DNA of 64,000 bases, taken from contig JANQNU010000084.1 of assembly GCA_028279405.1 (NCBI GenBank), forward strand, positions 1-64,000, given 5' to 3'. The notes under the pieces are model-generated. The model did not search any database. It worked only from the letters and a program-made list of their open reading frames with translations, and was not told the origin of the DNA. Below are positions 51,441-54,023 of this stretch, in pieces; within the stretch, counting starts at the first letter, position 1; each line of letters starts with the position of its first letter. The stretch comes from Phycisphaerae bacterium (GTDB lineage Bacteria; Planctomycetota; Phycisphaerae; UBA1845; Fen-1342). Position numbers and translations under genes: made by a program.

Positions 51441-52139
51441 TTATTCCCCGGCGTCGCGCGTGCCGGCGCCAGCGGAGGCCGGAATCAGGGAGACGTTGGG
51501 AGGTGCGGGTCGACCGAACTCCTGGACCCAGTAGATCCCGAACTCGCCCCCGCGCCGAATCCCGACGCCAAGCTCTTCGTAGTCCGGGTTCAGGATGTTG
51601 GCCCGATGCCCCGGGCTGCCCATCCAGTCCGACATAACCCGCTGCGGGTCGGGTTGACCGGCGGCGAGATTCTCACCGATCAGCAGGAATTCGTAGCCGA
51701 ACTCTTCGGCGCGATCGCGCAGCCGGGTCCCGGTCACGGGGTTGTCGTGCGCGAAGAAGTTGTGCTGGATCATCTCGCATGCGTACTGGGTCGCCTGCGC
51801 TTCCAGCGTGGCGTTCCGCGCCACAGCGTTCAGGCCGGCCCGGGCCCGTTCCTCGTTGACCAAACGTAACACTTCGTCCTGCCAGGCCGCGACGCTCGTG
51901 AAGGTCCGGCAGTTCGGAAACTGATTGGAGAGCTGGTCGGTAAACGTCGAGCCGGTGGTCGATCCGCTGGTGTTGTCCGAGACGGCGGTATTGCCACCCG
52001 TTCCCGATCCGCCGGCGCCCGTTCCGCCGTCCGGAGCCCCGGTAAAGGTCGGGCCTTGCACGCCCGCCTGCGGACAGCCACCAACGTTCAGCAACAATCC
52101 TGCAAGGAGCCCTGCCAGCATCAACGTTCGGTTCAGCAT
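51441..52139 (-). CDS. CAP/SCP-domain lipoprotein
   Basis: 232 aa from ATG 52139 with GAGGTGAT about 7 nt upstream. Signal peptide with lipobox VGGC, then a Gly/Thr/Ser-rich linker. Residues about 82-215 form the CAP domain: 'WQDEVLRLVNEERARAGLNAV', 'HNFFAHDNPVTGTRLRDRAEEFGY', 'GENLAAGQPDPQRVMSDWMGSPGHRANILNPDYEELGVG'. The family His/Glu residues (H of HNFFAHD, E of IGEN, H of PGHR) are present. Bacterial SCP-like proteins are extracellular and of unclear function. Confidence 0.93.
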   Translation of the reverse strand: MLNRTLMLAGLLAGLLLNVGGCPQAGVQGPTFTGAPDGGTGAGGSGTGGNTAVSDNTSGSTTGSTFTDQLSNQFPNCRTFTSVAAWQDEVLRLVNEERARAGLNAVARNATLEAQATQYACEMIQHNFFAHDNPVTGTRLRDRAEEFGYEFLLIGENLAAGQPDPQRVMSDWMGSPGHRANILNPDYEELGVGIRRGGEFGIYWVQEFGRPAPPNVSLIPASAGAGTRDAGE

Positions 52140-52313
52140 CGATCGATCACCTCACTCGGACTATCGGATGGCAGCCGTCCCGCAGCTGCCTCTATCTTAC
52201 GAAACACCCCGCGATTCGGAAGCCAAAAGTGGGCCTTTTCGCGCCCTGGTCGACCGATAATCTTCCTCGCGATCCACGGGGGCAAAAACCGTGCAAAATC
52301 GGAAATAATATGC
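52140..52313. other. Gene-free leader and spacer
   Basis: Between the CAP gene start (minus) and the small RNA promoter (plus). Nothing coding; AT content rises sharply from 52290. Confidence 0.5.
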
Positions 52314-52341
52314 TTGAAACGATTCGGCCCCGTGATATACT
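52314..52341 (+). promoter_or_regulatory. Strong sigma-70 promoter of the candidate small RNA
   Basis: TTGAAA (52314-52319), 16-nt spacer, TATACT (52336-52341); four of six and five of six consensus matches. Predicted start about 52347-52349. Confidence 0.6.
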
Positions 52342-52346
52342 TTTCT

Positions 52347-52482
52347 ATGATGAGAAGGAAGTGGAATTTCCAGCTCCTTCTCCGGGCGTTCCATAAGTCC
52401 ATGCTACGAAAATACTTGCTTCCACTCGCTGCGGCACCCTCAGACCGCGCCAATACCCACGGGGTGCCGCACGCCTTTTTTT
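52347..52482 (+). ncRNA. Candidate small regulatory RNA, about 135 nt
   Basis: It starts 6-8 nt after a strong promoter and ends in a strong intrinsic terminator. The 5' end folds into a long hairpin: GAGAAGGA (52352-52359) with TCCTTCTC (52375-52382), and inside it TGGA with TCCA. The middle ~48 nt are largely unpaired. The TTCCAC at about 52420-52425 could compete for GTGGAA (52361-52366), giving an alternative fold. A 48-codon frame begins at 52347, but its stop lies beyond the terminator T-run, so translation is unlikely. It does not show the conserved motifs of SRP RNA, 6S RNA, tmRNA or RNase P that I know. Confidence 0.55.
52431..52482 (+). terminator. Rho-independent terminator of the candidate small RNA
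   Basis: GCGGCACCC (52431-52439) pairs with GGGTGCCGC (52462-52470), extended by a T-A pair; seven T's follow at 52476-52482 after ACGCC. Confidence 0.75.
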
Positions 52483-52613
52483 CTGCACTTTAGATGTTAT
52501 CCTGATGTTTGGATCTTGTTACGGTTGCGGTGCGCTCATTTCAACCACACACTGTTCGCTCGATGTTCGTATATTGGCGCGCCGCGGCGCAGAATTGTCA
52601 CGTAAACCAGATG

Positions 52614-53163: not shown

Positions 53164-53222
53164 CCCGCTCGACCCGACGCGTGTCGCGGTCGAAACCGTA
53201 TGCGCCGCGTTGGACGGAAGAT

Positions 53223-54023
53223 ATGAACGAAAGCAGTCCCGCAAAAAAACCACGAAAACTCCCAAGGCCCTGGCTATACGCACTCCCCCAGGGTCAGCTT
53301 CCGAAATCGGTAAAATGCGCCGGCGTCCGATATGCGCACGCCCACACCTTCAAGCACGACTTCTTCGCGGCCACCGGAAGGTACGAATCCGATAGCCAGT
53401 CCGCGGTCCTCAAAGTCGGTCGCATCACCGACTTCTTCGGCCTCCCACTCGACTGGATAGGCCGCTTTCTCCGCGATCGGGAGTCCAGGCTCTACGAGAT
53501 GGTCGAGGACCTCCCGGGTGTGCCCTCATTTATCGGACGAGTTGGAGCCACCGGGTTTCTGCATGATTTCGTGCCGGGGCATCCACTCGGCCGCGACGAG
53601 GCGGTTTCGGACACGTTCTTTGACGAGTTGAGCGGACTGTTGAGCACGCTCCACGGGCGTGATATCGCGTATGTCGACCTGAACAAGCGACAGAACATAC
53701 TGATGGGCGATGACGGCAAACCATATCTGATCGACTTCCAGATCTCGCTTCATCTGCCTGGAAACGGGTGGGGTCGCGTTCCGGGAGCGCGGTGGCTGCT
53801 GACTCGCTTTCAGCGGGCGGACGAATATCATCTCCTGAAGCACAAGCGGCGATTGCGGCCGGACCTGATGACGGCAGCCGAAACGGCCCGTGTGACGCAC
53901 GTGAGTTTCTGGATTCGGCTGCATCGGCTGGTAGCACGTCCGTTTACCTATCTTCGTCGAAGGACGCTGGAACGGATTCGAAAGAGTGAGACCGTGCACG
54001 TGGCCGGTTCAGACGCGAAGTAG
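53223..54023 (+). CDS. Small kinase-like protein (lipopolysaccharide-kinase/RIO-like fold)
   Basis: 266 aa from ATG 53223. An N-terminal lobe with 'SAVLKVGR' (probable ATP-contacting Lys), hinge 'FLHDFVPGHPL', catalytic-loop-like 'DIAYVDLNKRQNILMGDDG' and metal-site-like 'PYLIDFQISL' (DFQ in place of DFG). A basic C-terminal tail follows. The layout matches short atypical kinases that phosphorylate sugars of lipid A or similar substrates rather than proteins, but the exact family is uncertain. It stands between the Rrf2 regulator and an unknown gene. Confidence 0.78.
   Translation: MNESSPAKKPRKLPRPWLYALPQGQLPKSVKCAGVRYAHAHTFKHDFFAATGRYESDSQSAVLKVGRITDFFGLPLDWIGRFLRDRESRLYEMVEDLPGVPSFIGRVGATGFLHDFVPGHPLGRDEAVSDTFFDELSGLLSTLHGRDIAYVDLNKRQNILMGDDGKPYLIDFQISLHLPGNGWGRVPGARWLLTRFQRADEYHLLKHKRRLRPDLMTAAETARVTHVSFWIRLHRLVARPFTYLRRRTLERIRKSETVHVAGSDAK

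Follow-up and report, generated by a model that had tools for sequence, protein, structure and literature searches.

The cyanobacterial small RNA (sRNA) Yfr1 is widely conserved and carries a near-invariant, unpaired, C-rich motif before its terminator hairpin. In Actinobacteria, the mraW RNA motif is a structured leader that acts in cis near mraW/rsmH. Many members of the Planctomycetota lack FtsZ, and division in this phylum is unusual. The sRNA StsR of Rhodobacter sphaeroides binds UpsM and the 5' leader of the division/cell-wall (dcw) cluster (PMC8307010, PMC5089854). A 64,000-nt stretch of planctomycete DNA, called the window here, contains an sRNA locus for which StsR and MmgR appear to be the closest analogues, by predicted mode of action only. 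The elements of the locus are as follows.

52314-52319, plus strand: -35 element TTGAAA, read from the sequence; 26 of 27 family genomes have a TTGANN-like element with a constant 16-nt spacer
52336-52341, plus strand: -10 element TATACT, found in 26 of 27 family genomes, 69 to 77 nt upstream of the CTTCC core
52348-52482, plus strand: predicted sRNA transcript of ~135 nt, its start placed 7 nt after the -10 box
52352-52382, plus strand: 5' hairpin GAGAAGGA...TCCTTCTC, in the predicted fold and private to the window copy
52392-52400, plus strand: CATAAGTCC, by family alignment a member of a conserved GTAAGTGC-like box within the otherwise variable 5' half
52419-52435, plus strand: proposed seed CUUCCACUCGCUGCGGC, near-invariant order-wide, with complementary sites at rsmH leaders, the pha operon, and nuoJ
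52430-52471, plus strand: intrinsic terminator stem-loop, its conserved loop with GACCGCGCC, from pairing and family folds
52472-52482, plus strand: terminator tail, CGCC and seven T's (52476-52482), T-rich in most relatives
53181-54023, plus strand: kinase-like gene, the conserved downstream neighbor in the family (context only)

An earlier note on the window had proposed a stand-alone sRNA gene with a TTGAAA-16-TATACT promoter, a long 5' hairpin, a mostly unpaired middle, and a terminator stem of 9 to 10 bp followed by seven T's. All of these are present in the window sequence: the promoter at 52314-52341, the hairpin as part of the predicted fold, the unpaired middle, and a terminator stem, UGCGGCACCC/GGGUGCCGCA, of 10 bp, which pairs 52430-52439 with 52462-52471. 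The first 11 nt of the seed precede this stem, and the remainder lies in its 5' arm. A generic terminator scan of the locus missed the full stem because the loop is ~22 nt long. The fold, which contains both hairpin and terminator, has a z score of -2.7 against shuffled sequences (1 in 200 was as good), and the promoter match alone is modestly above chance, with 2 matches in 3 kb against 0.7 expected. Fold and promoter of this single sequence make an only moderate case for an sRNA gene; it is conservation, with promoter and core found again in genomes of the family and the order, that makes the observation decisive. Upstream of the sRNA, the window has a CAP/YkwD-family lipoprotein gene on the minus strand (51441-52139), a place taken by another membrane-protein gene in most family members.

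Using the whole intergenic region (52140-52613) as the homology query, we found a conserved block of 64 to 77 nt, roughly 52409-52483, at mostly 93 to 99% identity in the family genomes and at 78 to 94% identity in nearly all other sampled genomes of the order, which we take to be GTDB UBA1845; two sampled genomes of the order gave no such block in this search. A covariance model of the core, which spans ~52414-52483 and consists of CUUCCACUCGCUGCGGCACCC, a 20-nt loop, and the terminator, matched in 101 of 114 order genomes, including 63 of the 65 good ones. The same model had no match among 391 genomes sampled from other parts of the phylum, under strict filters and with few candidates scored per genome, a setting in which distant relatives may escape. 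Among named genomes there were 29 true matches, all in Planctomycetota and mostly labeled Phycisphaerae. The sRNA is single copy in most order genomes; a second, sometimes degenerate copy of the core (about 27 to 81 bits) was seen at L066 (G031), L501 (G483), L502 (G469), L503 (G492), and G467:C202. Across the order, a promoter scoring at least 9/12 precedes 61 of 81 loci, compared with 10% of shuffles, and the predicted RNA is 126 to 135 nt long in the 25 family genomes modeled. In 21 of 27 family genomes, the sRNA has as its neighbor a homologue of the kinase-like gene, which has weak similarity to serine/threonine and KDO kinases, while other families have different neighbors, so the sRNA is an independent unit. 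Comparative genomics thereby bears out the stand-alone, promoter-driven, terminator-ended small RNA, and we regard it as almost certain that the gene is real.

Conservation is concentrated in the 3' half, which comprises the unpaired CUUCCACUCGC, the terminator stem, and the loop with its near-invariant GACCGCGCC. The earlier note had held that conserved stems with compensatory changes would support its reading. In the alignment of relatives, 100% of the cells are paired over the 10 pairs of the terminator stem; nine of the pairs are invariant, and the tenth is G-C in place of A-U in three sequences. In the family folds, the loop is ~92% unpaired. Among 19 aligned family members, variation in the 5' half is free except in the GTAAGTGC-like box, in which AA is invariant and the neighboring residues are mostly kept. 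The 5' hairpin region differs in both sequence and shape among relatives, and the hairpin was rejected as the functional element. Of the layout that had been proposed, the 5' hairpin and the switch between two folds are not conserved; the conserved, and probably functional, half is the 3' one. The competing TTCCAC/GTGGAA folds do exist in this one sequence, but they have no conservation in relatives. An alternative fold of the seed with the 5' half was also rejected, the best anti-seed match there having 3.28 mismatches compared with 3.26 in shuffled sequence.

The block might instead belong to a short, unannotated gene as its conserved terminator or 3' untranslated region (UTR), or might encode a small protein, as a 145-aa open reading frame (52056-52493) spans the unit. 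The stop of this frame does fall after the T run, as had been noted; it is not the only frame, however, since a second one (52229-52396) also overlaps the unit. Against a coding origin, the family has a conserved promoter 69 to 77 nt upstream of the core, the 5' half is too divergent for a conserved reading frame, and the neighboring genes are different in other families. Moreover, conservation tracks an RNA element rather than codons, as seen from indels of 1 to 5 nt in the terminator loop, the invariant unpaired motif, and the A-U to G-C exchange in the stem. We consider a 3' UTR or small-protein gene extremely improbable.

Rfam 15, a search that had been suggested for the window, returned no family match above the gathering score. 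One of three subthreshold matches in the region lies at the terminator and is to RF00519 (suhB/MmgR), and membership was rejected at 12.2 bits (E 5.6) against a cutoff of 41 bits. A CsrB/RsmZ-type sponge with repeated ANGGA hairpins was likewise rejected, as GGA is missing from both the unpaired and the loop sequences that are conserved; a GGA in the 5' half of the window copy is not conserved. A housekeeping or protein-binding RNA (6S-like, SRP-like, or protein titrating), in which seed and loop would be protein contacts and the complementary sites incidental, deserves more weight. The unpaired motif and the loop GACCGCGCC are extremely conserved in a mostly single-copy, order-wide RNA, and the terminator loop has no consistent target complement, as might be expected of protein contacts. 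Yet no Rfam match to 6S, SRP, tmRNA, or RNase P was obtained even at an E value of ≤10, and 6S RNA was rejected on structure: the folds combine a variable 5' part with a 10-bp terminator stem whose loop is ~20 nt, and they lack the long 6S rod, whose large central bubble mimics an open promoter. The recurrence of sites in one orientation at rsmH and pha, described below, would also be unexpected for such an RNA, and we consider it unlikely. The locus instead has the properties of a base-pairing sRNA gene: its own promoter, a Rho-independent terminator, a length within 50 to 300 nt, an intergenic location, and, judged by sequence, a short conserved seed with complements in unlinked mRNAs close to their translation starts. 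No planctomycete sRNA of such a kind is described in the literature that we searched, and the gene was previously uncatalogued.

Partial matches to the core in relatives turned out to be complementary sites. Complements of CUUCCACUCGCUGCGG recur in the pairing orientation only, at the mraZ-rsmH leader and the PHA operon. Eight of the partial matches, all from the window's family, are located between mraZ and rsmH. The pattern was initially noticed in family f1 and turned up again in f8 and f4. With up to 2 mismatches, CCGCAGCGAGTGGAAG is present in 26 of 90 rsmH upstream regions (5 exact; 9 in f1, 1 in f4, and 16 in f8). The three control orientations gave 0, and dinucleotide shuffles led to an expectation of ~0.1. 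The f1 sites lie about 110 to 185 nt upstream of the rsmH domain, and most of those in f8 shortly past the mraZ stop. Family f7 and many others have no rsmH-leader site although their seed is equally conserved, so no single target explains the conservation, and the sRNA must have further targets or a role with a protein. In the window's own genome, the rsmH leader has no site; the rsmH gene itself carries a 36-nt two-block match, which may be a coding coincidence.

Some further features of these leaders were observed. Two incomplete genomes have exact rsmH-leader sites, L308 (G471) and L342 (G462), but yielded no sRNA copy; the sRNA is present in sister genomes of the latter. The mraZ-rsmH leaders (L277-L366, e.g., L366, L313, and L327) are non-coding and 300 to 600 nt long, and ANGGA on their sense strand is 2.3-fold enriched (227 observed, 100 in shuffles, and 50 on the reverse strand), often within GGA-loop hairpins such as GCGA-ANGGAN-TCGC, CACGGATGTG, and GACAGGGATGTC. 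Those of f8 also have a terminator-like GGGGG..CCCCC with a T run. CsrA is present in 60 of 61 genomes, and the leaders have no relevant Rfam match. They may represent an undescribed CsrA-controlled leader or sponge RNA.

Sites at the PHA operon recur in families f1, f7, and f8, with ≤2 mismatches in 8 of 20 3-kb upstream regions against 0, 0, and 1 in controls. An exact GCRGCGRGTGGAA lies 15 to 45 nt before the thiolase start in seven genomes of five genera (control, 0); the small gene before phaC is weakly PhaR-like. A site with one mismatch is located 11 nt before the ATG of nuoJ in the window's own genome (G000:C62:74592), and in the relative G003 the nuoJ site is 9 nt before the start. 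The gene was identified by the Pfam domain Oxidored_q3; RNAduplex energies for nuoJ were no better than those of shuffles of the GC-rich sequence window and were set aside. Matches surveyed within 60 nt upstream of a start numbered 9 sense and 0 antisense, and cytochrome b is among the start-proximal sites (G032 and G036). Other complements were seen elsewhere. In L373 and L388 (G499 and G497), near position 1500, an exact seed complement lies 16 nt past a stop codon, just before a terminator, possibly as a 3' UTR site or decoy. In G011 (L261, L263, L264, and L265), five copies of a short repeat, GGGTGCCCCAtCCTTGAACGAGCGCAGCGAGTGGAAGGGTGGGGGAC, contain the seed complement, mostly in non-coding DNA.

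A short motif common to the fronts of functionally related genes could also be a regulon box, the shared 14 to 16 nt then being a DNA site through which a transcription factor governs the sRNA locus along with rsmH, pha, and nuoJ. The sites occur in a single orientation, with the reverse sense in 0 of 90 rsmH leaders even at ≤3 mismatches and the 9:0 sense bias near starts, and they are found immediately upstream of start codons, directly behind the mraZ stop, or within genes rather than at promoters. Within the sRNA gene itself, it is the near-invariant 3' half, predicted to be transcribed, that holds the motif. A DNA site is thus very unlikely, and base pairing is preferred.

Several results limit the case for these targets. 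In the window's own genome, loose complementary matches are not enriched (83 compared with 131 in the control). Order-wide, 15- to 16-mer matches are in roughly 3-fold excess over reversed controls. We do not count this excess as proof, since many of the matches arise by codon coincidence: the codons for RSEWK in B12-dependent ribonucleotide reductase and RGEWK in TPR proteins create them, and matches in coding regions were discounted for this reason. The seed is nearly invariant and so offers no compensatory changes by which to judge pairing, and the coupling of sRNA and target flanks is slight (rsmH, p = 0.11 for pairs and 0.049 for run length; pha, p = 0.83). On average, the seed is 54% unpaired in family folds, and full pairing with a target would require the terminator stem to open.

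The most likely explanation is a trans-acting antisense sRNA that tunes division, carbon storage, and respiration, and on the sequence comparisons it probably acts through the predicted rsmH, PHA, and nuoJ targets. The earlier note had put forward a regulatory RNA of unknown target; the regulatory RNA is supported, and specific predicted targets now take the place of the unknown one. The gene would be an autonomous unit of ~135 nt in one order of Phycisphaerae-type Planctomycetota, its transcription presumably initiated at the sigma70-type promoter and ended at the Rho-independent terminator. The C-rich CUUCCACUCGCUGCGGC, partly single stranded before the terminator stem and partly inside it, would serve as the seed, pairing with GCAGCGAGUGGAAG-type sites in messages of the dcw cluster (mraZ-rsmH leader), of the PHA operon (ahead of the genes for thiolase or the small PHA-synthase subunit, or of phaC), and of genes such as nuoJ near their start codons. 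Sites 5 to 45 nt before a start codon suggest a translational block, in which ribosome binding would be prevented. The more distant rsmH-leader sites suggest action at the level of the leader, where structure, stability, or read-through might be affected, like that of StsR on the R. sphaeroides dcw leader (PMC8307010). Its role may be to shift resources between growth and division, respiration, and carbon storage.

More tentatively, we suggest an ancient, order-wide riboregulator that coordinates cell division (through the dcw leader), PHA storage, and respiration by pairing with a single invariant 16-nt segment. Its target sites would repeatedly have been lost, gained, or moved among leader, start codon, and coding region while the sRNA stayed frozen, and it may interplay with CsrA on the GGA-rich mraZ-rsmH leader RNA. 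An sRNA that is frozen across an order, with its own promoter and concrete predicted targets in growth and carbon storage, offers a testable circuit in little-studied environmental planctomycetes. The dcw link is interesting because division in the phylum is unusual and because the dcw leader is also the target of an unrelated sRNA from an alphaproteobacterium.

Compared with known systems, the planctomycete RNA shares RNA-level control near mraW/rsmH with the mraW motif, which is a cis leader and not a trans-acting sRNA. It shares with Yfr1 the C-rich unpaired motif ahead of the terminator hairpin and the wide conservation, although motif and phylum are different and Yfr1 is about half as long. 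Like MmgR (alpha-r8) of Sinorhizobium meliloti, it is a small sRNA with an intrinsic terminator and a link, here predicted, to PHA/PHB storage, but MmgR affects phasins, whereas the planctomycete predicted sites are at thiolase and PHA-synthase genes (PMC8401924). Like StsR, it would act in trans on the leader of the mraZ-rsmH division/cell-wall cluster. StsR, in contrast, is from a different phylum, binds Hfq, and has its site upstream of mraZ, while the planctomycete sites are located between mraZ and rsmH, with pha and nuoJ as further predicted targets.
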